Part shown: in pieces, positions 7,856-44,332 of the stretch
Numbering within the stretch: the stretch's first letter is position 1
How the letters are laid out: the number at the start of each line of letters is the position of its first letter
Source of the DNA: Nymphaea colorata
Taxonomy: Eukaryota > Streptophyta > Magnoliopsida > Nymphaeales > Nymphaeaceae
NCBI RefSeq assembly: GCF_008831285.2
Contig: NC_045140.1
Span: 18,474,370-18,538,369, forward strand
Length of the DNA stretch: 64,000 bases
Direction of reading: 5' to 3'
The notes under the pieces: generated by a model
What the model was told of the DNA's origin: nothing
Database searches by the model: none
Seen by the model: the letters and a program-made list of their open reading frames with translations, nothing else
Made by a program: the position numbers and the translations under genes

Positions 7856-7859
<4 letters not shown>

Positions 7860-7931
<72 letters not shown>
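7860..7931. repeat. (AT)n microsatellite
   Basis: About 72 bp of uninterrupted AT. The equivalent tract in duplication copy 2 (42067-42094) is only about 27 bp, so the array changed length after the duplication. Confidence 0.97.
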
Positions 7932-7933
<2 letters not shown>

Positions 7934-10284: not shown

Positions 10285-13131
10285 CTATGAACTTTTGCGG
10301 AGTCTTTCAACAATCTCATGCCTGTCAATGAAGCGATCGAGCACCTCTTCATTTGGGATAATGCAATCATCTTCTTTTCCAAACCACTGATAGCGCCGGT
10401 TCGCTATATAGTCATACACTGCATCCCTCAGAGGATCTGGGATTACTAGCAAGAGGCTTAACACCGAGTAAGGCAATGGCAAGTACGAAAGAACCTTGAG
10501 TGCAGCTGCAACAAGAAATAAAAGTTTCACCACCACAGAAGAAAGCTTCCAGATCAACAACAGGAAGAAACAAGGACCTTCTGCATTAAAGATGGGAAAC
10601 CCAAGTAGAAGGGAAAAAACTCGGTTTAATCCTCTGCTGCATACAGTAACTTCAATACAATAGTGGTTCATAAAACAATATATGTTTCTTCAAGAGGGGC
10701 TTGAATGATGACAACCAAACAAAACACAGCAACGAAAGTATGAAGGAAAGGTGCAGAGACCTGAGCCTTCACGAGCAAGCGTGTGGAAGCAGGATAAAAA
10801 CGGAAATAAGCCAAAGATTTTCTGCAAATATGCAGGTGCATAAATGTTATCTGTAGACAAACATATTCCGTATGTTGGAGTAAAGTATCTTGACTCCAAA
10901 AAAGAGTTGTTGGGACTCGGTATCAGCCAAGGAATCTCTATGCACATAGCTATATGCTAGTGACAATATAGCATGGATGACTATCAGACAGGTGTAATAT
11001 ATTTCACTGGAACACTAACCATGGTACTAAAGAGCCATATGACAATCAACACACGAGTTGGTTAACCAAGTCAGACTCTTATTTAGCTAATAATACTGGC
11101 ACTACTGAATGAATATGAAAAGAATAGTGACTATGCTAGTGACAACACGAAAGAATATGCACATAGCTATAATAAAAGTGACAATATAGTTAGGGTGACT
11201 ATCAGACAGATGTAGTATTTCACTGAAACACTATGCATGGTACTAAAGAGCCAAATGACAATCAACACAACAGTTCATTGTCCAAGTCAGGCTCTTGTTT
11301 AGCTCATAACACTGAAACGTTCCAAAAATAAATCAAAAGAAAAAAGAATTTTTGAACAAAAACAGTCAAATCATCGATAGAGTATGTCTCTAGTATGCTG
11401 TCACTTGGCAATTTTCCTGTATTGTAGCATAAACTTCAGTAAGTTCAGCATTTGAACAAAGAAACGAGACAATAAAAACAAATAGTGAAAATAATTATAC
11501 ATGCAAACTGAAAGACCTCTCTATGTGCCCTTGATTGCGAAATCTAACATCAGCACCCTAAGCCTGCCTTCAGGTTATCACTCTTGGTTTCTGAATACTG
11601 ACTTCTTGGTGATATCCTAACAGAATTTCCACACTCTAATGGCTTTCCCTAGTAAAAGGGCACAAGGACAATAACTCAACAAGGGATAATTGCTTGCTTT
11701 ACCTTAAAAAACTAAAAATGTTATGAAAGAAATTTTCCTAAGCTTAAGAAGTAACAACTTTTGGTTAACAAAAATCTTGAATTTGTGCAAACTGAAAGAC
11801 CTCTCTCTGTGCCCTTGATTGCGAAATCTAACATCAGCACCCTAAGCCTGCCTTCAGGTTATCACTCTTGGTTTCTGAATACTGACTTCTTGGTGATATC
11901 CTAACAGAATTTCCACACTCTAATGGCTTTCCCTAGTAAAAGGGCACAAGGACAATAACTCAACAAGGGATAATTGCTTGCTTTACCTTAAAAAACTAAA
12001 AATGTTATGAAAGAAATTTTCCTAAGCTTAAGAAGTAACAACTTTTGGTTAACAAAAATCTTGAATTTGTGCAAACTGAAAGACCTCTCTCTGTGCCCTT
12101 GATTGCGAAATCTAACATCAGCACCCTAAGCCTGCCTTCAGGTTATCACTCTTGGTTTCTGAATACTGACTTCTTGGTGATATCCTAACAGAATTTCCAC
12201 ACTCTAATGGCTTTCCCTAGTAAAAGGGCACAAGGACAATAACTCAACAAGGGATAATTGCTTACTTTACCTTAAAAAACTAAAAATGTTATGAAAGAAA
12301 TTTTCCTAAGCTTAAGAAGTAACAACTTTTGGTTAACAAAAATCTTGAATTTGCAACCCAGGGAGGATGTAATAGTGAGCTGCCAGCATTAATGAAGATC
12401 TTACATCATCATGACAGCTAAAGTCATTTGATAACACGGGCCCCTGATTGAAATTTTCAATGGCTACCTCATCATACAGCTTTTCCATCTGAAGGACATT
12501 ATGTTTTATACTACTTAAGAAAAGAAGAGTAGAAGATTATTAGTAACAAGTCCTTACTCCAGTTACATTTCATTGTTTATATCATGTTTAATCCTGTAAT
12601 GACCATTTCTTTGTGATTGTTCCGTCTCCACCTTTGTATGAATGTGAATGATCTTCTTCTCCTTATTGCAATTAAGACGACAATTTCTATATTTTTCTAC
12701 TGCTTGTTTACTCTTGTCCATTTTGTTCCTCGATTTTTTTATGTAATCCTTTCTGTATTTTCTCTTGCATTTAGTTTCCATGCCAAATAAAATTGGTCTG
12801 TACCGATGACTACATTCATTGCATATTTATTTTAATCCACTATAGCTGTGTCAAAGTATAGGGGTTTTGATGCTCATCACTGTTTTCAGTTCTTTACTGG
12901 TATCATCCAATTTTCTACACTATGTGTGCTCCAACATCATGACTTCATTGCCCAAAATGGTCTAAAAAGTATAGCAATTTGTTAAAGTAAAGTTAGATCA
13001 TATTTTTACTGATAAAGCCACTTTTAAATAGCATAAAACAGATAATTATTGGCTAGTTCATCTGATTCGGGAAAAACAGCAGGTCCTTGCTGCCACCTCC
13101 TGAAAAAGAAGCTTGAAAAAGTAGAATGAAC

Positions 13132-22984: not shown

Positions 22985-24682
22985 TTAAAAAAAAAAAACA
23001 TTAGCACAAGCATTCAATAATATGGGAAGGGCAGAGATGGATAGAAGAGATGGATAGAAGGATCAGAAGGTTCTTTTTTGCAAGTTTACTTCCTTTTAAT
23101 GTAGCCAGAACTCCTTATTGAAAAATTGTTGTTACAGGTTTGGCTAATTACAGTTTGAGTGGTTATGTACCCCCGAGTCCAGAGAAGCTGAGAACAGTAA
23201 TTCTTGCAGAAGAGAAGGCAAACGTTGAAAAATTATTAGAGAAGAAGAAATTTTCATGGAAACAATATGGAGTGTTCATTGTTTCTAACGGGTGGACTAA
23301 TATACAAAGGCAGCCCCTGATAAATTTTATTGCTTATTCGCTTGATTGACCAATCTTCTTGAAATGTGTTGATGCATCTGGGGAGTATAAAGATGTTGAG
23401 TATTTAAAAGGGCTATTTATAGAAGTCATTAAAGAAGTGGGTGAAGATAATGTTGTGCAAATTATTACTGATAATGCTCCAGTTTGCCAACAAATAGGAA
23501 TGAATTTGGCAAGTGATCCCAAGTATAGTCACATATTCTGGACTCCTTGTGTGGCACACAATATAAATCTAGCACTTAAAAGTATTTGCAACCCACCAAA
23601 AGATGATCCAAATGCCGGTTTCTTGTATTCATGGATTGAGGAGCTTGAGCATGATGTCAGAAACATCAAAAATTTTGTTGTAAACCACAACAATGTTCTT
23701 TCTATATTTAATAGGCATTCTAATTTGAAATTGTTGAAGGTAGCAAAGACTCATTTTGCATCCATTATTGTAATGATAAAAAAGAATAAAGCAAGTGAAA
23801 CATACATTAACACTTATGGTGACTGACAATGATTGGGAGTTTTATCGGAATGATGACATTGTAAAGGCTCAAGAAATTTAAAAATACATTTTAGATGATG
23901 AATGGTGGGATAAAGTTACATATTTTCTGCAGTTTACAGAACCTATTTGGCAAATGCTAAGATGGAACATAAGCAATAACCCTTTGCATTGTATGGCACA
24001 CTCCTTAAATCCAAAATATTATGGACAAACATGGTTAGCAAGAGGTATTGGTCGTGTTCCTCCTAATCAAGATCCAGAAATATCAAAAAATAGGGAGATA
24101 TGTTTGGAAAAGCTAAGATAATAAATAATGAGTTTGTGAGCTTCTCTGGTGGAAGAAATGATTCAATACAAGCTGCAATGGCAAGAGATGAAGAAGATCC
24201 TATTAATTGGTGGTTATGTGTTTTGGACCATCAACACCAAATTTCCAACATCTTGCATTGAAGTTATTATCTTAACCTGCAACCTCTTCATGTTGTGAAA
24301 GAAATTAGAGCACTTATTCCCATATTTACAACATCAAGAGAAACAAGCTAACTAGTAAGCGATCAAAAAAATTAGTTTATGTCTACTCCAACCTATGCTT
24401 ACTTTCACGTACTTCAAATGATTATAGGTATTTCTTTCTTTTTTTATCTCTGATATGTATACATATGTATATTATGTTGGTTGTTTAATTAAAGTTAATA
24501 TTAACTTAAATCATATTTTGATTTTGTTGCAGCTTGTAGTTCAGGATCATCCAAGTATTGGGATGTTAATCCAGAGGACATTGACGTAGAACTTGAAGGA
24601 GAACATGATTTGCATGCTCTTAATATGGATCTTACAGAACCTGTTGTTCCTTCTAATCTTGATGATGCAACTGAGGAGTGAG
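22985..24682 (+). pseudogene. Dead hAT-type transposase (DUF659 region)
   Basis: Successive frames carry the conserved order of plant hAT-like transposases. At 23140-23349 there is 'GWTNIQRQPLINFIAY', interrupted by a stop at 23347-23349. At 23353-23826 come 'PIFLKCVDASGEYKD', 'VVQIITDNAPVCQQIG' and 'IFWTPCVAHNINLALKSIC' (DUF659 core). At about 23935-24060 is 'PLHCMAHSLNPKYYGQTW', and at about 24190-24225 is 'DPINWW'. Multiple stops and frameshifts lie between the segments. The C-terminal dimerisation part is eroded and an acidic tail-like frame lies at about 24540-24680. Terminal inverted repeats were not found. It is on the plus strand and cannot make an active enzyme. Confidence 0.85.
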
Positions 24683-24806
24683 GAGATCAACAAAGCTGAT
24701 GTATTTTGAATGTTAGTTATGAGACGGAGGAGAATGAGAATCAAAATTGATAAATTTTGGATTATGATTTATGAATATGGCAATATGTTATTTTTTTTGT
24801 AATTTT

Positions 24807-24935
<129 letters not shown>

Positions 24936-25171
24936 CGAATATGTTATTCTGTTTGAAATTTTTTGACATATATATGTATATGTGCATGTGTGTGTACGGC
25001 CCTACCCAGGTTTTTTAAAAATGGTTTGTATTCATAACCGTACCTGTACCTATGTGACATAGATTAGATTATGAGGAAGGACAATGTCTATGAAGGGTCT
25101 TCAAGCTTCTCTTTGACCTCTTTCGCTAAAGATGCTAATTTGAAAACAATAGGAATAAACAAAGGCTAGTA

Positions 25172-25973: not shown

Positions 25974-26600
25974 TAGTATTCCACAAAGGCTCATTATTCA
26001 CGTCTAGCTAAGGAGGAACTGCATACCTAACAGAAAATGTAATAGGTTTCTTCGTAGTACGTCAAGTTGAGGAACCTTCATAGGCAAAGAAGAGAAAGTT
26101 ATACCCAATAACAGGCCATGTCTTTTGCAGCATCAAGCAGATACAACACAGAGCAACAATTAGTGCGAACAAGAATATAAATGCTAGTAAAGGCTGGTTC
26201 TCCACATGGATCATCCAAGCGTGGTTTTTATGTGTATGCCCACTTGTAGAAGACAATGGCAAATTCCTACTAAAACTCAGGTATGAATGATAGCCTAAAG
26301 TCCTCAACTGCTTAAATCTATCGACTTCTAAGTACTAGATTATAGATTAACCAAAATGTGCTTATGTAAGGAGATGCCCACTTGCAGAAGGAAACTGCAA
26401 GTTTCGTTGTATAATTCATACCCTCAAGTTCTTTACAGCTTATATATAAACTTTCAACTTCTAAGTACTTGCTTATAGCTTTTTGTCCTTTGTGCGGGCC
26501 AAGCAAGGCAAAGCTACATTGTTTCTCAAATAAATTGGTTCTCAAGTAGAATGTGTATTTAGACTGAAGGGAATTTCAAAATTGATCAGTTTAGAATGGT
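25974..26600. other. Intergenic, or downstream intron of the inverted oxygenase fragment
   Basis: No domain-bearing frame is seen. Two imperfect copies of a roughly 100-bp segment (about 26210-26330 and 26375-26475) share 'tgcccacttg.agaag' and related strings. If the minus-strand oxygenase fragment was ever a full gene, its next exon would be expected here, but it is absent. Confidence 0.45.
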
Positions 26601-26639: not shown

Positions 26640-26910
26640 ACCAGAGACGACAACGATTCCCAGCCCGTCGCGTCCGAATCCATCTTCAATCTTCCTCGAG
26701 AGATCCACGCCCTCGCCGTGAACTCGGCCCAGCCCAAGAAAACAATTACGACGAAGATCATTCAAAGAAAAGGAAAACAATATCATAAATAAAACAAGTA
26801 AAACCCAATCGATTCTCCGTTACCCGAAGTTCATCGTAGAAGATGGTGACGGGCTTGACAACCTGTGGATTGGTCTCCGGCAGAGAAATCAACCCCTTGC
26901 AGGAAAACAT
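26640..26910 (-). pseudogene. 2OG-Fe(II) oxygenase-like gene, first two exons only
   Basis: Exon 1 (26824-26910) has an ATG in good context (gccaccATG) and encodes 29 residues ending FYDELR before a gtaacg donor. Exon 2 (about 26640-26711) reads 'GVDLSRKIEDGFGRDGLGIV' and then VVSG. This is the N-terminal region of an uncharacterised plant 2OG-Fe(II) oxygenase-like family. Joining at phase 0 gives an open frame. No third exon is found to the left; the matching later exons are on the opposite strand at 27.86 kb and beyond. It is therefore a displaced and inverted 5' end. Directly upstream is an inverted copy of the SAR1 5' flank, so the fragment could be transcribed (inference). Confidence 0.75.
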
Positions 26911-26945
26911 GGTGGCGGTCTCTCTCTTTCTTTCCCCTCCATCTC

Positions 26946-26981
26946 TTGAAGGAAACGGAGATGGAGGGGAAAGAGTGTGGG

Positions 26982-27021
<40 letters not shown>

Positions 27022-27260
27022 AGGTAGAAGTACCTCAACACTGTGTAAATGTTTAGAGACAATCTGAACCCAAGAAGAACAGAAAAAAGTAGAAAATTAC
27101 TGGAATGAAAAGACGAGGATGAGGGGCACTAATACACAAATCAAGTAAAAAAGCTTGAATACAAAAATACGCTGTTTTAAAAAGCAAATCAAATAACTAT
27201 ATTCATTAACAAATTCACAATCAGCCACAAGAAAGAAAAATCAAATAATAACCCTTGTGG
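26946..27260 (-). repeat. Inverted copy of the SAR1 upstream/leader region
   Basis: On the minus strand this stretch matches 48907-49246, the region in front of SAR1. It includes the same order of features: 'ccacaagggttattatttg', 'cccctcatcctcgtctttt', a (CT)n(CA)n microsatellite (here 26983-27021), and 'cccctccatctccgtttcc'. The match ends near 27260, where sequence like the CYSTM 3' flank begins. Its position gives the oxygenase 5' fragment a SAR1-type leader. Confidence 0.85.
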
Positions 27261-27361
27261 AAATTAGATGTAATTGGCTCATTTGTGGTATAAATCAGAA
27301 AGAAGACAAGTCTTTGTAGTTTCTGTTGTTTATGGGTGCTTCTATTCTTGACAAAATGTCA
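27259..27361 (-). repeat. Fragment of CYSTM 3' flank, inverted
   Basis: About 100 bp match the complement of 6187-6290 and 40390-40500, the sequence just downstream of the two CYSTM stop codons (shared 'aaattagatgtaattgg', 'tcagaaagaagacaagtc'). It lies between the SAR1-like segment and the large inverted repeat. Confidence 0.8.
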
Positions 27362-27368
27362 TTGCAAA

Positions 27369-27797
27369 ATGAGGGGGCTGGGGGTGATTTAGTGGGGGTT
27401 GTTCAAGACCCCTTCAGAACTTTTTTGAAAGATGAGAGGCGCCACCGTCCTCGGCAGCACCTTTCACTTGAGCCTGACTTGATTTGTAATAAAGGATCAT
27501 AAAATATAAAAACTTCATACATAAGATATCTATAATTAGAACTACACCATGTCAGCTTCCAAGATTACTTGCACATTTCTCGTTCTCAGTTTACTTTGCT
27601 AATGTATTCAGTGGGCTATGAGTCACAGGCACATTTTACTACAACCACATGAAAAGTGCCAAGAGCATGTTCACTGTGTTGCATTGTCAAGATGATCCAA
27701 TAACTATCATTTGCTCAAGTTGTAAACAGATAAAGTGGACATCATGATTTGAAGTATCACTGCTGCACATCTTCAGTAGAGATACAGTACCTATCAG
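27369..27797. repeat. Large inverted repeat, left arm
   Basis: This 429-bp arm is the reverse complement of 29100-29527 with few differences. It contains 'gaggcgccaccgtcctcgg' near its outer part and 'gtagagatacagtacctatc' at its inner end. The spacer is about 1.3 kb and carries oxygenase exons. Confidence 0.9.
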
Positions 27798-27854
27798 CTT
27801 AACAGGAGGGCTTTTCTAATAAACTGGTCATCTATGTCGTTTTCGTATATGAAG

Positions 27855-29106
27855 CATTCATATCTCTTGGAAAGTTGATCTTTGATGTGGGAGTCATGTT
27901 GGCATATCACTGTGATCAATATGGTATGTTCTCCTTGACAAATCTTCATGTGCTACAACTTTCTTTGCATTGGAATAGTTTTCAGTTAATTAAGTTTCTT
28001 TTATTATCATGTTTTAATTTGAACAGTCTCCAAGGAAGTGAATATATCTGAAGATGAAAGTCTTAAAAACATGCTTCAGCGCTCTCATTGTCATAAAGGC
28101 TGTCTTTTGTACTACTTCCCAAAACAGAAAAGGTTTAATTTCATGTAGAACCCTGATTTTGCGTTGCATGTTAAAATGGTTTTTAGCTGTATGTCCAAGG
28201 GTTAACTGCTTGATTGTTTTCTTATCACATGTAACTTGTGTAGCAGCTCTCTGTTCTCACTTCACCCCTGAACTTATACAACTTTGCTTCTCGTGCCTTT
28301 CTCTTCGTCGGCTGAGAAGAATATGAAGCATGGATACTGGAAATTCCATGATGCTTCATAGACAAGATGTGGTGCCATGTATATGAGCTTATTCTTGTAC
28401 TTGGTCCTTCAATTTTTGCCTTCCTGTTGTGAGTTTTTGCTAATTATGCCTTTTAATTTTTAAGTTATTTCTCTTTATGTTGTCTATGAACTAACAATTG
28501 CTAACATGGTTTTTATACTTCATGTTTCAGACCATGAATATTGAACATGCATAACCATGCTTGCAGTTCATGCACTCAAGCACCTGTTTTATGTGCATGT
28601 GAAAAGCTTCATAATACTTGCAATACGTTTTAGTGTTTCTATTGACATTTGGTGTCATTGACTAAAAAACCATCGGGATGGTGTGCTACATCTTGCATAG
28701 TACCACTAAGTCCAACTGAATAAATCATTTCTATTTTGGCACCTATATCTCTTGCATTTCTGTGACGTGTCGTTTCTGTTTTTCATGTTTGTGCTTCACT
28801 GTCAGGCTTAGTTTCTTTTAGCAAGTTATGGAGTTTCAGAGACGTACAACATGATGAAGTGATATGGAGGACAATACATGCTAATGTGCAAATTCATTAA
28901 TATGAAATATGGCTAAATAAATTCATTGTAAGAAAATGTCCTTGTATGTTTCACATCTCCAATTTTTGTGGTTGTCATTAGTGTTTTGGGAGAAGAAGCT
29001 GGCTCAATGTCTTCTTGGTGTGTTATATGTGCTGCACACCATGACCATACCCATTGTAATATGTGTTCTTGGTGTGTCTGGCATACGGACCATGTTTCGC
29101 TGATAG
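27855..29106 (+). pseudogene. 2OG-Fe(II) oxygenase-like gene fragment, set 1 (three exons)
   Basis: Exons 27855-27923 ('ISLGKLIFDVGVMLAYHCDQ'), 28027-28132 ('VSKEVNISEDESLKNMLQRS' and 'LLYYFPKQK') and 28982-29106. Donor and acceptor phases fit (1, 2). The last exon holds the HxD iron-binding motif (WHTDH), but 54 extra bases are inserted in frame just before it. They are flanked by a repeated 'tcttggtgtgt', and nearby Gly residues are changed compared with set 2. The first exons, the second iron-binding His and the 2OG-binding Arg region are missing. The end of the last exon coincides with the inner edge of the right inverted-repeat arm. It is a remnant, homologous to 37122-38277. Confidence 0.8.
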
Positions 29107-29527
29107 GTACTGTATCTCTACTGAAGATGTGCAGCAGTGATACTTCAAATCATGATGTCCACTTTATCTGTTTACAACTTGAGCGAATGATAGTTGTTGG
29201 ATCATCTTGACAATGGAACACAGTGAATATGCTCTTGGCACTTTTCATGTGGTTGTAGTAAAATGTGCCTGTGACTCATAGTCCACTGAATACATTAGCA
29301 AAGTAAACTGGGAACGAGAAATGTGCAAGTAATCTTGGAAGCTGACATGGTGTAGTTCTAATTATAGATATCTTATGTATCAAGTTTTTATATTTTATGA
29401 TCCTTTATTACAAATCAAGTCAGGCCCAGGTGAAAGGTGCTGCCGAGGACGGTGGCGCCTCTCATCTTTCAAACAAGTTCTGAAGGGATCTTGAACAACC
29501 CCCACTAAATCACCCCCAGCCCCCTCA
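29100..29527. repeat. Large inverted repeat, right arm
   Basis: Reverse complement of 27369-27797. This orientation is probably the original one, because part of it matches the sequence that follows the oxygenase exons in set 2 (about 38380-38560). Confidence 0.9.
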
Positions 29528-29672
29528 TCGGACGATCCACATCGACTTCTGGAAAAAAGGAAAAATTCATTTTCTCCTTCAAAAACCAGCGACATTCCTT
29601 GGGCAAGGAAGGACAGTCGGGGAGAAATACCCAGCGTTGCAGGCATCGTCTGGCATCTCGTACTGCGGAAAA

Positions 29673-30196
29673 ATGGTGTGCTTCCTCCCCTCCTCCCCTG
29701 TTCTTCTCCTTCAGCTCCGGGTAGCTACTGCCCACTGTTGTTTCTTCTACTAAGTCTATACTGAAATTCTCATTTCTTCTAACTTGTCGTAGGAGTGGGA
29801 GCTTCAAGCTAACATCGGCTGCTGTCAGAAATGCCGGGAAGACGTGGCAGAGTACTTGACGGGCGTTGAAGGTAATAATAGCTGAAACTGATTCTTGCAT
29901 TGAAACGGACGGCCCGACAGTTTCGTATACTAATTAAGCATGTCATCGGATTTAGGAATGATGTTGCGTTCAAATTGATAAACTTGTATATTGCAGGCGT
30001 TGAATCCGTGGATTTGTACCCAGAAATGAGGAAGGTGGTGGTGACGGGAAACGTAGATCCCGACGTCCTCGTCCTTGAAGTTCAGAAAGTGAAAAAGAAA
30101 GCCCGAATACTGACGAGGGGCGCGTCAATCCCTGCGAAGAACTTGTCCACCGTAGGTGATGAACACGGTCGCAACAACAAAGAAGATAATAAGTAG
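29673..30196 (+). CDS. Heavy-metal-associated (HMA) domain protein
   Basis: The HMA fold binds metal through a CxxC pair; plant HPP/HIPP proteins of this type act in metal handling and stress. Exons 29793-29871 and 29997-30196 are well supported: a gtaata donor, a ttgcag acceptor, and the reading 'ELQANIGCCQKCREDVAEYL', 'TGVEGVESVDLYPEMRKVVV', 'TGNVDPDVLVLEVQKVKKKA'. The CQKC motif is in exon 2. The first exon is less sure: an ATG at 29673 gives 16 residues to a donor at 29721, with a 72-nt intron, total 108 aa. No C-terminal CaaX box is present, so it is HPP-like and not isoprenylated. The tail ends early at TAG, while the copy at 38.6 kb reads on with extra Lys. Confidence 0.75.
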
Positions 30197-30696
30197 AAGC
30201 AATCAGGACATGCAGAAATTCCACTGAAAGAAGAAGAACCGGAGAAAGCAAAAACAGTATATAAACCCCCAAAACCATCGGATGGCAGGGGCGAGGTCTC
30301 CGCCCGCGGAGTGGAAGAACTATGGCCTGAATCTTTGAGCAGCTGGGCTTGGTGGTGTTGGCATCTTCTACCGCTGGGGAAAGATCTACAGAAACAAGTA
30401 GCTGAGCTGTGAAGGGTAGCGTCTCCCTCTCCAGGTTTATGCATGCCTGGTTAGATATTGAAGGCGGTAATGTATTTATCGTCGTCTGTAAAGGCATTAT
30501 TACAATTTTACCGCTGCCGTAATTCTCATGTTTGACGGGGAGCAGGTATATCCTGTACGCAAACACCATGCGGCAATGGCAAGAGAAGTTTGGTTTTCAA
30601 CCATATAAACATCGTTGTATGTTTTCTTCTTCTTCTTTGTTTTCTCTTGATGTCGTGAGAAAGAGAGAGAGCGAACTGCGTTAACAGAACATTGCA

Positions 30697-31707
30697 CGGT
30701 CTACAAGCCAACCATACCGTGTCGATTGGGGCTTCAGATCTTCACCAAAAGTACCGAACATGCCAACCCTATAATTGAACTTGGTACGCCTAAACGTTGT
30801 GAAATCCACTTGGATTCGGGCTGTAAATGCGTTGAGTATACTTTTATTTCAAGGTTCGATTCTCACGAGCATCAAAACTGTAGATGTACCTCGAGTTTGG
30901 TGGGAAAAAAGAAAGAAAAGACAATTTGTTTTGAGAGGCATGTTTTTAGAACATATGTTCAAAAGCACTAAATTAGTGAGATATTATGTCCTGATTGTTG
31001 GATCTAATAGTCTTTTTTGGAACAGAATAATAAAGTTTCTGAATGTTGTCTTCTATGAGCATGTGTTTCTAAATAGTAGTCGAAGACAATATTTTATTTT
31101 TTTTATCAAAAAACATTAATCAACTTTATTAATATAAACTTGCATGTAGTGAAATTGGATCTTCACGGATACGCGGGTCATATTTCAAATTTGAATATAT
31201 TTGGAACTCGGTTTTTGAAGTTATACATAATTGAACAACATCAAGTGAGAAAAAATGTGAGCTTTGCATGGACTGGATCTAATCAAACTCGGAGAATACG
31301 TGGCAAATGGCACAATTTGTAAGTGTTTGGTGAACATGCCTCAAATAATATGTAGATTTATAAATATTTAGTTTTAGTATTTCATGAATCTGTCTTAAAC
31401 TTTAACTTTATGTTGGATTTATGAACCTTTTTCAAAATATTTGAACTACCAAACAACCAAAATGTTAGTGTGCACTGTCTTTTCATAAAAAGCTAAAAAG
31501 CGCTGAACGACAGCTGCAGGCCTTCTAAAAGAATTTTTTAAAAAGTTACAGTGCGATTTGGTAATCCGGAAACATTTCTTGGAACGAAATTTAGCGGAGC
31601 ATGCACAAGCCCAGGCTGTGACGCTTTTTAACCATTCATCGCTGGACTCTGCGGTGACAGCCATCCGATCAAGTACTGTAAATTCATTCCAGTAAACGCC
31701 TCCGACC
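30697..31707. repeat. One-kilobase dispersed repeat, copy 1
   Basis: Collinear with 43265-44332, same orientation. It runs from 'gtctacaagcc.accatacc' through 'agaggcatgtttttagaac' to 'ttcattccagtaaacgcctc'. The copies differ by indels (for example extra 'actattatttcaccaaccc' in copy 2). Small frames on either strand are shared but have no recognisable domain. No terminal repeats or target duplications are evident. Confidence 0.8.
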
Positions 31708-31854
31708 CTTGAATACCTAGATTATAGATGATTGGTAAGTTCATGCAAGAACCTTCTATGTGCTGAAAGTTAAACCAGCAAGTCAACATGTAGGCAGTAT
31801 TAGTTGATACTTGACCGCCAAGGAAAGAACTGCTATTAGAAGTGAAGAGAGAGT

Positions 31855-34830
31855 ACGGATATCTAGTGATTGTTGTCTTGGGAACCCTCCCACAAAAAAG
31901 TATATGAAGCGGCAACATTTTGTGAACAGTTTCATTACCTACGAAGTTAAGCTAATATTTCATTTAAGGTCGACTTTCAGGAAAGATGAACTGAGAAGAT
32001 ATTAACCCTGATATATTTCTCGTCTCACCTTCATGATCTTTTTGTAGATAATCCTTTATGACTCTTTTGATTACCAGCATAACCTTCTTCACTGTCGTAT
32101 AATATTTTTGTCTTGATACTGAGGGATGAAAATCGGATCTCTCCCTTTCTGATTTTCTTCATTAGATTTAGAGGGAAAGTACACTTTGATGAGAGTACAT
32201 CCAGGGGTGCTAGAAAGAAAAATGCAATAAATCCTGAAAATATGCAGGTGGTTACTCTTGATCAAGTCTCTGAATTGGATATGTTTACTCTACTTTTTCC
32301 CATAAAATGTTTTTCTGAAGTTTCCCCTCATTTAAAATCAGCACGCAAAAATTAGAGATAGAGTTGAGAGACAACTAAGTTATCAATGCTCGCTGTCATT
32401 ATAAGTCATGGTCAACAGTTTTATATGAAATTTTGGTATATATGTCTTGTTCTTTTACCAGCACTTTTTGAGAAAAGATTATAGTGAAGAAAAGGTAAAG
32501 TTTCTATGAGATGTTTTTTGGTCAAAATATTTTGTTCCTAACATTGTTCATATATTTTGTGGAAGAACAAATGCTATATATTAGAAGGTTACAGACGCAT
32601 GCTTAACAGGAAGGCTTTTCATCAGCACTATAAAGAAGCATGACTAGGTGTATTTAGAACATTCATCATTTTTTCAGCCATTTTTGGAATAGTTGTTCTT
32701 TTTCATGTTGGTTACAATTAACATCTTTCTCTGTTGATATATGAATTAGTTTTGTACTTCTTTTGTTGTTGTCATTGACAATGAAAAGCATGTCTTTTGG
32801 AGCCGGTACTTGGAAGGTTTAAGCTGGCTATGACTTGTCATGTTTTAGGTACAATTTTGGATTGAGTCATGGGAAAGAGAAGGCTGAGTCTGGAAAACTA
32901 GGTATGTCAGTTTCTAGTTTACATTTGTAAACTCCAAACTTTGTTTTATAGGGTTCTAAACATCTTAGATGTCAAAGCAGAAATTGGAGTTTATGCTTTT
33001 CATTTTTCTCTTAATGAATTCCCTCTACATATATTAATTCTTTTTTCCCAAGAATCTAAGAGTGTGAGCACAAGTCTAGAAAGGGATTTAACTTTACTAT
33101 GCAACCATTTTCTGAAATCTTAAATCCTCTTCCATATTACATTTTCTTCTTCTTTTGTGGATATGCTCAAAGGATCCTTCTATGCAAATCCAATTATTTA
33201 TAGGGTTCTAAACATCTTAGATGTCAAAGCAGAAATTGGAGTTTATCACTTTCATTTTTCTCTTTATGAATTCCCTCTACATATATTAATTCCTTTTCCC
33301 AAGAATCTAAGAGTATGAGCACAAGTCTAAAAAGGGATTTAACTTTACTATGCAACCATTTTCTGAAATCCTAAATCCTCTTCCATATTGCATTTTCTTC
33401 TTCTTTTGTGGATATGCTTAAAGGATCCTTCTATGCAAATCCAACTCTAGTGATTGTTGTGTTGGGAACCCTCCCACAAAAAATTCTATGAAGTGGCAAC
33501 ACTTGTGAACAGCTTCATTACCTACAAACTTAAGCTAATATTTTGTTTAAGGTTGACTTTCAGAAAAGGTAAACTGAAAACACTTTTTAACCTTGATATA
33601 TTTCCCATCTCACCTTCATGATCTTTTTGTAGATAATTTTTTAAAACTCTTTTGATTGCCCGCATAACCTTTTAGCTTGTGAAATGTTCAACACTCTCTT
33701 CACTATCGTAGAATACTTTTGCCATGATACTGAGGGATGAAAATCGGATCTCTCCCTTTTTGATTTTCTTGATTAGATTTAGAAGTCAAGTACACTTTGA
33801 TAAAGAGTACACCCAGGGGTGCTTAGAAAGAAAAATGCATTGAAATCCTGAAAATATGCAGGTGGTTACTCCTGATCAAGTCTCTGCATTGTAGATGATC
33901 ACTCTACCTTTCCCATAAAATGCTTTTCTGAAGTCTCCCCTCTTTTAAAATCATCACGCAAAAATCAGTGATAGAACTGAGAGACAACTAAGCTATCAAT
34001 GCTCGCTGTCATTATAAACTATGGTCAACAGGTCTAGATGAAATTTTGGTTTATATGTTCTGTTCTTTTCCCAGCACTTTTGAGAAAATATTGTAGTGAA
34101 GAAAAGGTAAAGTTTCTATGAGGTTTTTTTTTGTCAAAATATTTTGTTCTTAACATTGTTCATATACTTTATGAAGAACAAATGCTATATCATTGTTCAT
34201 ATACTTTATGGAAGAACAAATGTTATATATTAGAAGGTTCTAGGCACATGCTTAATAGAAAGGCTTCTCATCAGCACTATAAAGAAGCATGAGTAGGTTT
34301 ATTTAAAATATTCATCTTTTTTTCAGCCATTTTTGAAATAGTTGTTCACTTTCATGTTGGTTACAATTAACATCTTTCTTTGTTGATATATGAATTAGTT
34401 TTGTACTTTTTTTTTATTGTCCTTGACAATGAAAAGCATGTCTTTTGGCGCTGGTACTTGGAAGGTTTAAGCTGGCCATGACTTGTCATGTTTTAGGTAC
34501 AGTTTTGGATTGAGTCATGGGAAAGAGAAGGTTGAGTCTGGAAAACTGGGTATGTCAGTTTCTAGTTTACATTTGTAAACTCCAAACTTAGTTTTTTAGG
34601 GTTCTAAACATCCTAGATGTCAATTGGAGTTTATCCTTTTCATTTTTCTCTTTATGAATTCCTTCTACGTATATTACTTCTTCTTTCCCAAGAATCTAAG
34701 AGTGTGAGCATAAGTCTAGAAAGGGATTTAACTTTACTATGCAACCATTTTCTGGAATCCTAAATCCTCTTCCATATTGCATTTTCTTCTTCTATGCTTA
34801 AAGGATCCTTCTATGCAAATCCAATTATTG
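31855..34830. repeat. Tandem duplication containing oxygenase exons
   Basis: A segment starting 'tctagtgattgttgt.ttggg' at about 31855 is repeated from about 33447. The sub-segment 'gggttctaaacatc' occurs three times (about 32948, 33202, 34598). The unit is about 1.3-1.6 kb and includes the 53-nt exon with 'SHGKEK' and the 'GSFYANP' exon. Divergence of several percent suggests moderate age. Confidence 0.85.
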
Positions 34831-37800
34831 ATGTTCCTTCGACTGAGGCTTCTCTTCTACTTCTGCAAAGGTTGTTAAAGAACTATATATGGTTCTATAA
34901 AGATATTGCTAAAAGTTTTTCCTCTTTTATAAAAACTGCCATGTGGAGGGATGGTATCAACCATTAACCTTTCTGAGTAATCCTTCGGAAATGGACAGTG
35001 CCATCGTTGCTATTCTTCTTTCAAATAGACAATAATGATATACAATTTTTGAATAGCACAAATCTTTAATGACCACTGAATGCTTTCTTGTGAATGTTAA
35101 ACATTAGTCTTTTATTGTAGAGACGACCCTATTCATTTGCTCACACGTGCAACCATTTCATGTCTCGGATGTTGGAAAACTAAAGACCAACAAATGGACC
35201 CTAGTTCCTTATAGGAGATACTGTTGTTCATGTAAAACACATCATTTTTTTTTCTTTTTTTTGGGGGGTGGGGGCCCGGGCGGTGGGCAGGGTGGGGGAC
35301 ATGTCCTTTCATTTCCTATGCTTTTGCTTTGTTGCTTCTTTCCATCACTTGTTTTATTATGAAGCTTTTTTGTTATTTGTCATTATCTTTGTCTATCTTT
35401 CTTAGATATCCATCTTATTGTCGACCAAATATATGGCCCAGGAATCATTTGCCGGAACTTGAGTTTGGTAAGTATCGTTTTTTTGTTTCTTAGTTCTTTT
35501 AATTTCTAGATCATGAAAAACAAAGCAATCTGGGTCACGTACCGGTGTCGACACGCCTACACGTGGACACCGCAGGATACGTTTTGAATCGGGTTTGGGT
35601 CAGACCCAATCCAACACTTTCATAACCCAATTTTCTTTTTAACCCTCGTTTCTTTTTACGCTTTACCCTCGACAGTCGACCTTCCTTTACCCTCGATGAT
35701 TTGCGGCGACAGCACAGTTCGGCAATGGTGGTCGACGGCGACGGCGATGACCTCCGGCGATCGACCGCGACATCCTGTGGCGTCCGGCGGCAGCCGGCGA
35801 CAGACAGGTAAGTGTTTTTTCTTTTTCTTTTCGATATTCAACTTTCATTTGGGGATTTTTTAGATTGGGTATTTCTTGCCAATTTGGGGATGTTTTCCTT
35901 TGAAGATTGGACAGTTAATGATCCTATTCTTCAATGCTATGTGCGATATTTTCTTTTTTTGTTTAATTTTGGGATTTGGTGATTTCGCCGATTTGGAGAT
36001 TTTGCCTTCGTTTTTGTAAGGTGGCCATTGCAACAGTCTCTAGAATGTGCCATAGGTTGCTGCTTTCATTGAGGACTGTTTTACATTATTCAGAAATAAA
36101 TCTCCGACTGCGTGTTTATACTTTGTCAGTTTGTTGTATTGTTTCATAAATTTTATGTTCATTATATGTTTTTTCCATCTTTTTATTATGTTTAATGTAG
36201 TATGATTTATGAGATTGTAAGAGTGAATTATTAATTTCGTGTTTTCTTTATTATCATTTTTAATTTTTTTGAATATAATATTCACCGTGTCCGCGTATCC
36301 TAAAATTTTGAAAAAATTGCCGTGTCCGCATACCCGTACCCGTATCCACATCAAATAAACATTTGGCTCATTGCAAATAGACAGCGATTTGTCCTTCGTT
36401 ACTGATAATAACAAAGCAGATTTCTAGAGAAATGTAGAGCTCCTGTAGCATCTCATGTTGTCACCAAGAATTGGAACCTGTGATGGCATCGTTTTGTTAA
36501 ATTATTTACAAACCAAAAGTATAGTATTATAACCAAAACAATAAAGAAAACTGTGTGAAGATATAGAGAACTTCTTTTTATTTCCTTTTGTCACTTTCAA
36601 GATCAAATGTCAGAAAAATGATAAAGAGAAATTCCATTGATATAGGATCTGTTTAGTTGTTTGTTGTCAATTTGTCTCCCAAACTTGAATAACATGGTAG
36701 TGGACCTCACAGACTGTGAGGGTGTGTGTGATTATAACGTACGAGGGATTTTAGATGTCGTCTCCTCATATCAAATTTAACTACTTGAATAATAAATGAT
36801 TGTTTAGATGGATTACAGACTTGACCTATGATATTCCAATAAAGTTCTGATTCTGACTTTATACCTAGACTGATACTTATTTAACTTTCCACCTTAAATG
36901 TGCCAGAAAAGTCTCATTAAAAAGAAAAATTAAGAAAGAATAAAATACCTTCATTTGGTTATGTTTGTCTATTAATTATACTTTTTCCCTTTGCCAGATT
37001 GTTCATTGGTCAGGGGTTGATTTAGATAGTTGTTTAGGCTAAGGTATATAAGAACGAATGATTTTTATTTTTGTTATTACTTCTAATAAATTGGTCATCT
37101 TTGTCCTTTTCGTATATGAAGCATTCAAATCTCTTGGAAAGTTGATCTTTGATGTGGGAGTCATGTTGGCACATCACTGTGATCAATATGGTATGCTCTC
37201 CTTGACCAAGATATAATTTATCATGGTATGAGCAATTATACATGACACTTCATGTGCTACAGTTTTCTTTGTATTGGAATAGTTTTCTGTTTATTAAGTT
37301 TCTTTATTATCATGTTTTAATTTGAACAGACCCCAAGGAAGTGAATATATCTGAAGATGAAAGTCTTAAAAACATGATTCAGCGCTCCCGTTCTCATAAA
37401 GGCCGTCTTTTGTACTACTTCCCAAAACAGAAAAGGTTTAGTTCAATGTAGAACCCTGATTTTGCATTGGATGTTAAAATGGTTTTTAGCTGTATGTCCA
37501 GGGGTTGACTGCTTGATTATTTTCCTGTCACATGTAGCTTGTGTAGCTGCTCTCTGTTCTCACTTCATTGCTGAACTTATACAACTTTGCTTCTCGTGCC
37601 TTTCTCTTCATGGGCTGAGAAGAATATAAAGCATGGATACGGGAAATTCCATGATGCTTCATAGACAAGATGTGGTGCCATGCATATGAGCTTAACCACT
37701 CTTTATGTTGTCTATGAACTAACAATTGCTAACATGCTTTTTATACTTCACGTTTCAGACCATGAATATTGAACATGCATAACCATGCGTGCAGTTCATG

Positions 37801-38374
37801 CACTCAAGCACCTGTTTTATGTGCATGTGAAAAGCTTCATAATACTTGCAATATGTTTTAGTGTTTCTATTGACACTTGGTGTCATTGGCTTCAAAACCA
37901 TCGGGATGGTGTGCTACATCTTGCATAGCACCACTAAGTCCAAGTGAATAAATCATTTCTATTTTGGCACCTGTATCTCTTGCATTTCTGTGACGTGTGG
38001 TTTCTGTTTTCCATGTTTGTGCTTCACTGTCAGGCTTAGTTTCTTTTAGCAAGTTATGGAGCTTCATACAACATGATGTAGTGATATGGAGGACAATACA
38101 TGTCAATCTGCAAATTCATTAATATGAAATATGGCTAAATAAATGCATTGTTTAAGAAAATGTCCTTGTATGTTTCACATCTCCAATTTTTGTGATTGCA
38201 AATTAGTGTTTTGGGAGAAGAAGCTGGTTCAATGACTTGGTGGTGTGGCTGGCACACAGACCATGGTTCGTTGACAGATACTGAAGATGTGCAGCAGTGA
38301 TATGTTTTGGGAGAAGAAGCTGGTTCAATGTCTTTGGTGGTGTGGCTGGCACACAGACCATGGTTCGTTGACAG
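32849..38374 (+). pseudogene. 2OG-Fe(II) oxygenase-like gene, set 2 (middle exons, tandemly duplicated parts)
   Basis: Exons with matching phases: 34497-34549 ('YSFGLSHGKEKVESGKL'), 34804-34870 ('GSFYANPIIDVPSTEASLLL'), 35406-35467 ('RYPSYCRPNIWPRNHLPELE'), 37122-37190 ('KSLGKLIFDVGVMLAHHCDQ'), 37330-37435 ('NISEDESLKNMIQRSRSHKG', 'RLLYYFPKQK') and 38207-38277 ('EEAGSMTWWCGWHTDHGSLT'). The last carries the HxD iron ligands. A duplicate of the first exon lies at 32849-32901, and a second copy of the last exon, with a one-base insertion, at 38303-38374. The start, the exon before 'YSFG' and everything after HxD are missing. Both HxD exon copies have lost the GT donor (AT instead). The block is a remnant, although most splice sites remain normal. 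Confidence 0.82.
35535..36350. mobile_element. Possible inserted non-autonomous element in an oxygenase intron
   Basis: GC-rich ends contrast with the AT-rich intron. The left end has 'gtaccggtgtcgacacgcc' and the right end has repeated 'ccgtgtccgc', 'cccgtacccgt' strings, roughly complementary in style. Inside, at 35690-35810, is a CpG-rich stretch ending in a perfect donor-like 'caggtaagtg'. Set 1 lacks a counterpart because that part of the intron is not present. Exact ends and target duplication could not be fixed. Confidence 0.4.
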
Positions 38375-38616
38375 ATACTGAAGATGTGCAGCAGTGATAC
38401 TTCAAACCATGATGTCCACTTTATCTGTTTCCAACTTGAGCGAATGATATTTGTTGCATAATCTTGACAATGCAACACAGTGAATATGCTCTTGGCACCT
38501 TTCATGTGGTTGCATTAAAATGTGTGTGACTTATCGGCCACTGAATACATTAGCAAAGTACCCTTTCGACAAATGTGTAAGTAAACTTAGAAGCTGACAT
38601 GGTGTACCCTTTCGAC

Positions 38617-38810
38617 AAAAGTCCTCCTCCTTGAACTTTAGAAAAGTGAAAAAGAAAGCCCGAATACTGACGAGGGGCGCGTCAATCCCTGCGAAGAACT
38701 TGTCCACCGTAGGTGATGAACACGGTCGCGATAACAAAGAAGATAATAAGAAGAAGAAGAAGAAGCAATCAGGACATGCAGTAATCCACTGAAAGAAGAA
38801 GAACCGGAGA
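38617..38810 (+). pseudogene. 3' remnant of the HMA-domain gene
   Basis: Matches the last exon of the gene at 29.67-30.20 kb from 'gtcctc.tccttgaa' onwards, reading 'KVKKKARILTRGASIPAKNL'. The CxxC part and the beginning of the exon are gone, and the join to preceding sequence carries a small frameshift. The tail reads through the position of the other copy's stop into a Lys run and 'QSGHAVIH'. 3' flanks of both copies are alike to about 39010. It follows oxygenase set 2 just as the intact HMA gene follows set 1, so the pair was duplicated together. Confidence 0.8.
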
Positions 38811-39010
38811 AAGCAATCACAGTATATAAACCCCCAAAACCATCGGATGGCAGGGCAAGGTCGCCAAGGAGTCGAAGAATTATGGCCTGAATCTTTGGGC
38901 ATCTGGGCTTGGTGGTGTTGGCATCTTCTACCGCTGGGGAAAGATCTACAGAAACAAGTAGCCGAGCTGTGAAGGGTAGGTAGCGTCTCCCTCTCCAGGT
39001 TTATGCATTC

Positions 39011-39989
39011 TTAGTTAGATATGGAAGGCGGTGATGTATTTCTTGTGGTTTTAATAATTAAGGGAGTAAAGCAGTTCTTCTGGTCTGTGCTGTTCAGTTT
39101 TTGTTAAAGTATGGAAGGGTTCCCTGTTATCGTCCTCTGTAAAGGCATTATAATTTTACCGTTATGTATCATGTGACCTTGGTTCATGCGACTTTTTCAA
39201 AAGCAAAGCATCTTGTTTCTGGTTTTTCTGTATTAATGCAAATACAGAGAAGGTTGATTGTCTCCATTTTTGTACCTTTAACATGAAGAAGATCACTTAG
39301 TCAGAGTGCTTAGAACAACCAAGAAAGGCCCAGATGTCAAAACGATGAAAAAGATACTGGCATATACTTGCGGATGTAGTTACCAACGATCCATTCCTCA
39401 CCAAATTAATTAAATCTCTGAATTTGATAAACTAAGATTGTGGTATCAGAATCGGCCCAATTAATACATCTGAATCGGCATATTCGACTCGAATCCTCTG
39501 CAAAATGATTCGGTTCGGCACCAACTCAGTGGTGAATAGTCTCTCTTGTGGCCGACTTAAATTTCAAACAGTGGCATGTGTACAAAATGTCGTAAGGTTC
39601 TTGCAGAAAAGCCCACCATTTCTACTCTTGCTCCTTAATGGAGCTTTAAAGGTGCTTTCTGGTGCAGCCTCTCAGTGGGGAGACAGGTGATTTCATATGG
39701 TGCTTTAATATTCAACGAACTAATGTAAGTCACATTAGTTATTAAACTAAACAATTGCTTTTTCTAAATTTTCGAAGAAAGTCATCCGCGACTTTGTCAA
39801 AAAGTTCGGTTTTCCCAGTATTGTTAAAACATACAACAGGCAGAAAATGGGTGGCATTCATCCAAATAATGCAATGTAGCCTCTTAGTTGCTGAATTGGT
39901 CACCGTCACATTAATACAATGGCATATTTTTTCTCTCTGCTCGTCGGCGAGCGCCGGCGAAGAACGCAAGCTCGGGCATGGTTATCTTC
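39011..39989. other. Intergenic, no gene recognised
   Basis: AT-rich sequence with small unrelated frames on both strands. A GC-richer patch at 39940-40010 leads into the (CT)n tract. Nothing supported. Confidence 0.5.
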
Positions 39990-40093: not shown

Positions 40094-40577
40094 TAGAATT
40101 CAAAAACAAATTATGGAAACCAGACATGTCTATTGTACTTGTGTAGGAAATCTAAAGAAATCAAAATAAAAAAAATTCGACGCGCGGATTGAATTTACCA
40201 AAAGACTTTAAAAATCAGTGGTTTTAATTCTTTCTTGGATTATAACATCTATTCTAAACATTAAATTTCCACAGTTTTTTTATGCCAACATTGTTGGACA
40301 GTTTCAGTCCATCTATTTATGCAATTAGGCGTATAAGAATATATTTGAAAATTCCACAAATACATCACGCTGCATAATACGCACATAAATTGCAGTGACA
40401 TTTTGTCAAGGATAGAAGCACCCATAAACGACAGAAAAGACTTGTCTTCTTTCTGATTTGTACCACAAATGAGCCAATTACATCTAATTTCCACATCTGG
40501 AAAAAAAGTAAACTGGGAGAAACGAAAGCCTTCAACTCCAAACGCGTCGTGCCGTAGGCCATCCAGGGCCTTCCTCA

Positions 40578-41112
40578 CTAGAAACAAGCTTCCAGGACAC
40601 AGCAGCAACAAAGAGCCGCAAGACTGCCATGAAAGAGTATCAGAAGCTTAGCCCCAAACACATGGAAAAAAGAGAAACAGAAAAAAGAAAAAAGAAAACT
40701 GCCATGATGGAATCTTTTAGATGTAAAACGATCTCTCCTTTCTGTGAAACGGCAGAAACCGATTTCTTCAGAAATTACCCTCCCCCCCTTTTCTTTTGCA
40801 AAGTGAAAGAAGAACATCTCCAGTTTAATTAATCTTCCAAAATAGTGTTTCAGACTAATCATCCATGGGAAAGGATCATAAAAAAGAAAACAGACGCATG
40901 CATGGAAGAGATTTGCAAACTTACACTCCTTCGAAACAACCAGGGCCGCTCTTCTGGGGAGGTGGAGGCTGCTGCGGGTACTGCGGTGGCGGGGCACCCG
41001 TAGGGTAACCTGCCGGCGGTGGCGGAGGGTACCCCGGCTGTGGAGGGTACCCGTACCCTGGTGCAGGGTATTGTGCCCCATAGTTTGGAGGTGCCTGATT
41101 GTAATAACTCAT
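40578..41112 (-). CDS. CYSTM-domain protein, second copy, two exons
   Basis: Exon 1 is 40925-41112 and exon 2 is 40578-40623, with the same gtaagt donor and cag acceptor as copy 1. The product is 77 aa: MSYYNQAPPN, then a Pro/Tyr/Gly-rich region with single 'GYPPQPGYPPPPPAGYPTGA' type elements, then the CYSTM module 'CFEGVLAALCCCCVLEACF'. All Cys of the module are present and the size is typical for the family. The protein is expected to be anchored in a membrane by its C-terminal segment with the Pro-rich part in the cytosol (family knowledge). Compared with copy 1 the Pro-rich repeat is not expanded, so this is probably closer to the ancestral form. Confidence 0.9.
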
Positions 41113-41212
41113 CTTGCAAAACTACGAGTCCCTGAAGCTTGAAGCCACGACTGCAAGCGAAAGAAGAGGATGAGCAAGGAGGAACGGGAGGTGGGTGAGG
41201 AAGAGAAGGGCG

Positions 41213-41222
41213 TAAATAAATA
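41213..41222 (-). promoter_or_regulatory. TATA-like element of CYSTM copy 2
   Basis: TATTTATTTA on the minus strand about 100 bp before the ATG, conserved in copy 1. Confidence 0.5.
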
Positions 41223-42064
41223 CAAGAGGGACCAGTTGAAAGGTGTCGACGATGGTTCCAACTTCCAACTGGGCAATTTCCTTCACAGTTAAGGGGAGAC
41301 TTGCTCATCTCGCCAAGTCAACGACACAGCGTGTATATATGATCCAATCGTTGGCGCCGGACTGGCAGTTTCCACTTCGCGGGAAAGCCGCGTGGACCCA
41401 GTTCAACTGAACCGGGTCTAGCACAATAATTCTTTTCTTTTATGAACCAGTGCCTTCAACAAAACCCGTCTTATCGGGACTTCAATGCATCGTTTTTAGG
41501 AATGTCAAGGATTCAATTTCAATTAGATATAACCTTTATTTTACGTGATTTCACATTTTTTTCAGTTCGTAGCATCAGAATGAATGCGAAAGAACAAAAG
41601 ATTAGCGTATATCCATATTCGATTTAGACTCACCATTCAAATCCAACTTTCGTTTTTTCACATTCGAATCTGAATCCAATTTATAAATGCACATCGAATC
41701 TAAATGTTATAGTATGTTATGTTAAGAACTTACTTTCAAAATGTATGGGTATTGGGCATTTATGTAAAAGTGAATCCAATGCTGAATTCGCTCTTGAATC
41801 TAGTCAAGTGTTTATTTGAAAGCGAATCTCAAATCTGGTTTGATGTCATTTCTTAAATATGAATTCATTCCTATGTATTAATCGAATATTAATTTTTTAT
41901 TCATATTATCAATTTGGTATACATCCATTCTAAATTAAATCGGTTAGCATCCCATTGTTTCATTTTATATTTTTATTCAACATTTTAATTACGAGATCTT
42001 TTGGGCAGATTTTTTTAGTGAACAACTATGACGAAGCCTCGTGAGGACCACACAAGGGAAGTTT

Positions 42065-42066
<2 letters not shown>

Positions 42067-42099
<33 letters not shown>

Positions 42100-42112
42100 T
42101 TATTTATTTATT
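42067..42112. repeat. (AT)n(TTTA)n microsatellite
   Basis: About 27 bp of AT followed by TTTA repeats, at the place equivalent to the longer tract at 7860-7931. Confidence 0.95.
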
Positions 42113-42524
42113 TGTTGAAGTCTTTTTAGACTCTTTCTTTCTTTGACATTTCTTCATGCAATAGTTTCTTCCCAGAGCTCTCTCGGGACCACTCTTCTTG
42201 GCTTCTCCCGAGAGTGTCGTTTATTCACAATATGGACCGCTTTCGTCTAGGGAGACGGACTCCATTGAATGATGTTTGAACGCGTCCCCAGGGAAGAAGT
42301 TTCGTTGGAATTAGTTTGCCAGCAAACAATCAAATAATTGATGCGTGGAATGGATCTACCCGACCAATGTATGGTTCCCACTTCATATTCTTGTTTTATT
42401 GGAATGGATTTATGAAATCCACATGGTTTCACATTTTTTATCCAGTCATTGGATTGGTATTTTCAAACAAAGTTTGAGTTTGGTAAGTATAATTTTGCAT
42501 ATAGACTAAATGTAAGCCATGAAC

Positions 42525-43060: not shown

Positions 43061-43264
43061 TCAGGACCACTTGCATTCCTCTCTGCAAACTTGAGTGGCC
43101 TCAATAATATTTCCGACTAAAATAATATTCCTCACCCCAAGATATTCGTGCAATAATATAAATCAGATGTACATAAAAGAAGGGTTTACTTTATAACATC
43201 ATCTACTGTTCACCGTAAGGCTTGCGTAAGTATTTAATGTGCGCCTGAACGCACCTGGACAGGA

Positions 43265-44332
43265 CATTGCACGGTCTACAAGCCGACCATACCATACCGT
43301 GCCGATTGGGGCTTCAGGTCTTCACCAAACGTACCGAACATGCACATGAGTAAGAAATCCATTTGTGAAACCCATCTGGATTCGGGCTGCAAATGGGTTG
43401 AGTATACTTTTGTTGCAGGGTTCGATTCTCACGAGCATCAAAATTATAGATGTACCTCGAGCTTGGTGGGAAAGAAAAAGAAAGAAAAAACAATTTGTTT
43501 ATGAGAGGCATGTTTTTAGAACATATGTTCAAAAGTACTAAATTATTGCGATATTATGTCATGATTTTTGGATCTAATAATCTTTTTTGGAACAGAATCA
43601 TGAAGTTTTTGAATGTTGTGTTTCTAAATAGTAGTAGAAGACAATATTTTATATTTTTATCAAAAAACATTAATGAACTTTTGAATGTAAACTTGTATGT
43701 AGCAAAATTGGATCTTCACGGATACGTGGGTCATATTTCGAATTTTAACATATTTGGAACTCAGTTTTTGAAGTTATACATAATTGGATAACATCTAATG
43801 AGAAAAAATGTGAGCTTTGCATGGACTGGATGTAATAAAACTCAGACTTATATAACTCAATCGCTGCATTGAGAATTGAATACATCAAACTATTTGACAA
43901 ATGACACAATTTGTAAGTGTTTCATGAACATGCCTCAAATAGATGAACATGCCTTCAAATAGTGTGTAGATTCATATATACTTAGTTTTAGTATTTCATC
44001 AGAATCTGTGTTTTAGACTTTATGTTAGATTTACAAAACTTTTCCAAAATATTTGGACTACCAAACAACCAAAATGTTAGCGTGCATAGTCTTTTCATAA
44101 AAAGCTAAAAAGCGCTGAACGACAGCTGCAGGCCTTCTAAAAGAATTGTTTAAAAAGTTACAGTGCGATTTGGTAATCCGGAAACATTTCTTGGAACGAA
44201 ATTTAACTATTATTTCACCAACCCAGCGGACCACGCACAAGCCCAGGCTGTGACGCTTTTTAACCGTTCATCGCTGGACTCTGCGGTGACAGCCATCCGA
44301 TCAAGTACTGTAAATTCATTCCAGTAAACGCC
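43265..44332. repeat. One-kilobase dispersed repeat, copy 2
   Basis: Partner of 30697-31707. The two copies end at the same point ('ttcattccagtaaacgcctc'), which suggests a defined element boundary. Confidence 0.8.

Follow-up and report, generated by a model that had tools for sequence, protein, structure and literature searches.

Unprocessed (duplicated) pseudogenes are a general category of gene relic, in which the introns are kept, splice and frame lesions are found, and one collinear relic is left. The locus described here is ordinary in kind, i.e., a duplicated pseudogene in pieces, and lies at C3:18474370-18538369 of the Nymphaea colorata genome (64 kb of the 408-Mb assembly; this whole stretch is called the window). 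It resembles that category in its kept introns and its splice and frame lesions, but it is made of inverted and repeated blocks. Judged from its sequence, it is very probably an incomplete, rearranged, and non-functional copy of an ordinary 2OG-Fe(II) oxygenase gene of the clavaminate-synthase-like kind, shaped by error-prone break repair.

In maize, the p2/p1 region of the P1-wr cluster holds duplicated gene copies, a chimeric gene arose via illegitimate recombination in an intron, and filler DNA at repaired breaks was copied from nearby (PMC2686159). The window is like the maize region in its duplicated copies, a join in an intron, and nearby-copied filler (PMC2686159). The maize p copies compared there are 98% alike (PMC2686159), whereas the copies on C3 are older, approximately 6-11% apart. 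As further differences from maize p2/p1, the C3 copies probably come from a copy that was frameshifted beforehand, and one of their blocks is inverted. On the protein side, the described relative is the clavaminate synthase-like oxygenase of PDB 9hdl/9hdm; the protein of the intact gene on contig C6 aligns with it, whereas the window copy ends after the HxD exon.

The intact gene was recognized at C6:2901141-2891470 on the minus strand, from a gene model that combines reading frames with splice signals. It has 15 exons, encodes 364 aa, and shows GT/AG at 14 of 14 introns. A preliminary description of the window, which read exon phases without any tools, had rightly predicted that the genome holds such a source elsewhere. 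The C6 protein aligned with PDB 9hdl over residues 15-327 (E=1.3e-55), and its H-T-D, A-T-P-H, and S-R-A-T stretches paired with stretches of the solved 9hdl protein. These stretches would be the iron and 2-oxoglutarate ligands of the family. Beyond 9hdl and 9hdm, the hits at E<=0.01 were two thymine dioxygenase sequences near 0.01. Membership of the superfamily was found with Pfam DIOX_N (33.1 bits vs. a cut-off of 27.3), and the score against Pfam 2OG-FeII_Oxy was 17.8 bits, below the cut-off of 23. Neither the window nor the C6 gene, whose protein scores under the cut-off of that model, was among the 79 matches listed in a PF03171 search of the plant's own genome.

A query joined from the window exon candidates gave 20 matches in the genome, i.e., in the window, at C6:2.896-2.901 Mb, at two further loci of C3, and on contig C629. 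In the genome protein search, only the best candidates were scored, and the nucleotide search skips very common words. The two further C3 loci, P (C3:18.363-18.368 Mb) and Q (C3:18.115 Mb), are also broken copies, 0.13 and 0.38 Mb distant from the window. The C6 DNA holding exons 1-10 (C6:2895899-2901999) had 45 matches in the genome, 23 of them at C6 or the three C3 loci. Of the others, 21 matched a dispersed repeat of approximately 75 bp that lies upstream of the gene, and one, of 45 bp, was on C13. For exons 11-15 of the C6 protein, the close matches (>=81%) among the 43 listed (E<=10) were confined to C6; the farther ones among those listed were C1:18389299 (37%), contig C629 (30%), and others at <=36%.

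Contig C629 (23.5 kb) holds a distant homolog at 2283-3064 of the part read, with 43% identity to the window pieces and 30% to the C6 protein. Its guanine-cytosine (GC) content was 48.6% over the 6 kb read, vs. 38% in the window, and its longest frame had no Pfam match. This contig is probably a contaminant of other origin.

By exon-wise blastn and alignment, exons 1-10 of the one 15-exon gene were located in the window, in 17 exon copies. These matches are beyond chance, and in blastn searches of the window with each exon and its flank, the E-values ran from 7e-67 to 3e-6, the latter for a 32-bp tip of exon 10 in an inverted arm. This tip (27765-27796) and a 23-bp exon 7 match at 42474 (E=8e-7) were left out of the 17. 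The copies form a minus-strand block of exons 1-4, running from 26910 down to 25094, and two plus-strand sets, i.e., set X (27855-29106), a second occurrence of exons 8, 9, and 10, and set Y (32849-38374). Set Y consists of two exon 5 copies, three exon 6 copies of which two are cut short, exons 7, 8, and 9, and two exon 10 copies in tandem. The copies and one insertion are as follows:

25094..25139, minus strand: exon 4, AA in place of the acceptor, 3' end deleted together with the donor
26027..26075, minus strand: exon 3, 1-nt deletion common to P and Q
26640..26717, minus strand: exon 2, acceptor AC in place of AG
26824..26910, minus strand: exon 1, undamaged from the ATG to the GT donor, sharing 81/87 nt with exon 1 of C6
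27855..27923, plus strand: exon 8 of set X, undamaged
28027..28132, plus strand: exon 9 of set X, undamaged
28982..29106, plus strand: exon 10 (HxD exon) of set X, in-frame 54-nt insertion
32849..32901, plus strand: exon 5, first copy, undamaged
33161..33201, plus strand: exon 6, truncated copy, acceptor lost
33412..33444, plus strand: exon 6, second truncated copy, likewise without an acceptor
34497..34549, plus strand: exon 5, second copy, undamaged
34792..34870, plus strand: exon 6, full-length copy, 6-nt insertion, acceptor deleted
35406..35467, plus strand: exon 7, undamaged
35524..36351, no strand: insertion in intron 7, not present in C6 or P
37122..37190, plus strand: exon 8 of set Y, undamaged
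37330..37435, plus strand: exon 9 of set Y, undamaged
38207..38277, plus strand: exon 10 (HxD exon) of set Y, donor AT in place of GT
38298..38374, plus strand: exon 10, tandem second copy of set Y, acceptor side altered, donor AT

The C6 exon length was exactly kept in 10 of the 17 copies, i.e., exons 1, 2, and 7, both copies of exons 5, 8, and 9, and the first exon 10 of set Y. Two more copies were off by 54 and 6 nt, which are multiples of three. Eight copies were undamaged (exons 1 and 7, and both copies of exons 5, 8, and 9), and nine were damaged (exons 2, 3, and 4, the three exon 6 copies, exon 10 of set X, and both exon 10 copies of set Y). Exons 11-15, i.e., everything beyond the HxD exon, including the distal His and Arg, had no match in the window; of the set H-x-D, distal His, and Arg, the window copy holds the HxD exon alone. 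Pfam searches with five exon-bearing frames and with a 135-aa string joined from the window exons gave no hit at E<=10. The kept introns together with the disabling lesions place the locus among the unprocessed pseudogenes. A processed (retro-) pseudogene was ruled out, as intron DNA aligns.

Several claims of the preliminary description could be compared with this inventory. A single ancestral gene family, an inversion and duplication history, and the lack of any complete copy or of anything after the HxD motif all held, given that each of exons 1-10 was located, that inverted and tandem copies appeared in self- and cross-alignment, and that exons 11-15 found no match. Exons 1 and 2 do lie on the minus strand (26910-26824 and 26717-26640) as described, but the block also includes exon 3 and a truncated exon 4, so that an inversion of the first two exons alone was replaced by one of exons 1-4 after exon-wise blastn. 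The middle exons do form two plus-strand sets, but these are unequal, i.e., exons 8-10 vs. exons 5-10 with exons 5-6 tandemly repeated. Splice phases had been said to match; exon boundaries and phases follow the intact homolog, but the splice signals do not always, and 9 of the 17 copies are damaged.

The three C3 loci share part of their history. In exon 3, the identical base is missing in the window, P, and Q, so their common ancestor probably lacked it already, i.e., it was probably frameshifted in exon 3 before the rearrangements. P and Q have further losses. P lost the exon 1 donor, the first part of exon 2, 13 nt of exon 4, and the HxD part of exon 10, and Q lost the start codon and part of exon 2. 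P and Q seem to have a common deletion at the exon 2 start that is not in the window, and Q has a further deletion adjoining it. P is homologous, with gaps, to the 6.45 kb between C6:2902466 and C6:2896016; the last base of this stretch lies in intron 10 and is also where the homology of sets X and Y stops. Downstream of the intron 10 truncation, an HMA-domain gene follows in all three:

29572..30487, plus strand: HMA-domain gene copy of set X, downstream of exon 10
38621..39069, plus strand: HMA gene copy of set Y, 3' part

The oxygenase and HMA pieces diverged to a similar degree among the C3 copies. Set X corresponds to P 5697-8280, and its identity to set Y is 85-89%.

In P coordinates, the inverted block of the window spans 656-2464 and the plus block 2834-8305. 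The two do not overlap, as is expected of a single copy that was split between its fourth and fifth exons. The features at the joins and in the later duplications are as follows:

26929..26974, no strand: inverted repeat, 17 bp perfect with a 12-nt loop, inside which the homology upstream of exon 1 ends
27369..27804, minus strand: inverted copy of 436 bp, 97.0% identical to 29093-29528
27797..27816, plus strand: filler DNA, a 20-mer matching 32601-32620 in the exon 4-5 intron at 19/20
30684..31703, plus strand: spacer of approximately 1 kb, recurring at 43259-44335
38605..38619, plus strand: filler DNA, a 15-mer, exact copy of 38559-38573

Two matches were found in 0/100 shuffles for the 20-mer and likewise in 0/100 for the 15-mer. 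The 15-mer sits at the deletion joining intron 10 to the HMA-gene DNA, and at the 31700 join the microhomology CTCC is common to both partners. Two templated fillers of 15-20 nt and this microhomology make the locus a filler-DNA rearrangement. The tandem exon 10 copies of set Y are 97.9% alike; together with the 97.0% arm, this makes both look younger than the remaining duplications. A third full copy of the spacer was not among the 24 matches listed. The segments 27369-27804 and 29093-29528 form a long inverted repeat with a 1.3-kb loop, and a transcript through it could form hairpin RNA.

We infer the repair pathway, the direction from C6 to C3, and the order of the steps as follows. A 6.45-kb piece, from the promoter side to intron 10, of a gene like that on C6 would have arrived on C3 with the exon 3 base already missing, and would then have been duplicated to at least three places within 0.4 Mb. 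In the window, exons 1-4 would have been inverted away from exons 5-10, with a break in the region of exon 4 and intron 4. Exons 8-10 were duplicated along with the HMA gene, which is part of the duplicated unit, exons 5-6 were duplicated in tandem, and the 436-bp arm was copied in inverse orientation. The joins look like products of error-prone double-strand-break repair with template switching.

Several observations weigh against this history. The left flank 10231-11014 adjoins the oxygenase piece in P, but in the window it runs into other DNA at P's C6 junction point; as it does not enter gene sequence, one plain inversion is insufficient for the locus. In 17 of 18 pairwise comparisons, the exons were more alike than the introns, and in the remaining one the two identities were equal. 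The ratio of nonsynonymous to synonymous differences per site (pN/pS) against C6, counted on exon copies of unchanged length only, was 0.64 in the window (from 29 changes), 0.48 in P (27), 0.50 in the second exon 5 (3), and 0.83 in Q (7). Constraint may thus have persisted for some time, or may act on the C6 branch. For set X, the ratio was 2.36 (10 changes, one synonymous). The trees of three blocks were star-like (support 35, 54, and 72), with C6 and the C3 copies not set apart from each other. Since the trees do not place C6 as outgroup, the C6-to-C3 direction is drawn from the truncation and the lesions.

The DNA around the HMA gene was compared with C6 as well. Outside C3, the best match of the HMA stretch is C6:2732644-2733590 (85%, with gaps), within an HMA cluster approximately 160 kb from the oxygenase gene, and further HMA relatives lie elsewhere on C6 and on C7 and C1. 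The DNA between the intron 10 join and the HMA gene matches both C6:2737846 (84% with P, 78% with the window) and C6:16125339 (92%), so that C6:2.73 Mb need not be its only source. Between C3 and the 51 kb of C6 around the oxygenase gene, the 6.45-kb piece and short hits were all that was shared. The DUF677, DCC1-like, and CYSTM proteins of C3 had no match in these 51 kb or in C6:2.712-2.742 Mb (81 kb in total). A whole-genome duplication behind the C3/C6 pair was not supported within the 51 kb compared, though the HMA gene does have C6 relatives.

Among the other explanations, a burst of template-switching repair could have copied the oxygenase piece and an HMA gene, whose nearest relatives on C6 are approximately 160 kb apart, into a patchwork on C3 and rapidly spread this over three sites in 0.4 Mb. 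Both the star-like trees and the like divergence of the oxygenase and HMA pieces (approximately 6-11%) are compatible with this. The exon 2 deletion in P and Q only and the 97-98% identical late duplicates speak against one single event, and we consider the burst unlikely.

Capture and transport of the oxygenase and HMA pieces by a transposon, i.e., a Pack-MULE, Helitron, or CACTA element, would account for pieces of two genes lying together, near a hAT-like DUF659 remnant at 23350-23823. However, no dispersed family was seen, the gene DNA being at C6 and the three C3 loci only, among the matches listed; the matches listed for the 1-kb spacer include a single further full copy, and the joins carry filler and microhomology. 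Capture is thus quite improbable.

A region rich in tandem duplicates, as this one is, is prone to mis-assembly, and a normal plus-strand gene could have been mis-ordered or haplotypes stacked. Such an artefact is very improbable, as the copies are 75-98% identical rather than nearly identical, the window sequence is without any N, the lesions lie inside exons, the join fillers are copied from elsewhere in the locus, and the close matches listed for exons 11-15 are all on C6.

That the pieces are still useful, e.g., as a short protein resembling an oxygenase or a transcript fusing oxygenase and HMA parts, is hardly credible, because no active enzyme is to be expected from an HxD exon that lacks the exons encoding the distal His and Arg, the exon 6 acceptors are lost in 3/3 copies, and exons 1-4 lie on the opposite strand, even though 8 of the 17 copies are undamaged (including every window copy of exons 5, 7, 8, and 9), exon 10 of set X is on the same strand as the HMA gene copy, and exons are slightly more alike than introns.

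Read as a rearranged partial copy shaped by break repair, the locus is a clear, traceable example of gene decay, with an intact source, three descendants, shared and private lesions, and legible joins in one genome. Because source and descendants stand in the same genome, copying and shattering can be traced stepwise. The locus is also a warning for annotation, since several perfect-looking exons here could be called as a gene.

Other repeats and frames were found in and around the window. A transposase remnant at 23350-23823 (Pfam DUF659, 88 bits), presumably of the hAT type, lies beside a long TA repeat at approximately 24800-24940. Three 284-bp head-to-tail repeats at 11502-12353 are 99% identical, and a 179-bp direct tandem repeat at 61573-61925 is 97% identical. 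A direct duplicate of approximately 2 kb (5934-8046 and 40132-42233, 71-78%) includes a small CYSTM-like frame at 40921-41121 on the minus strand, with a Pfam score of 19.5 bits, under the cut-off of 25.2. Both sides of P are parts of a large direct segmental duplication (C3:18339000-18388999), approximately 33 kb apart and 83-97% identical. At 1511-2407 of the window, a DUF677 frame is open over 299 codons, and its relatives lie beside P and approximately 5 kb left of the window.

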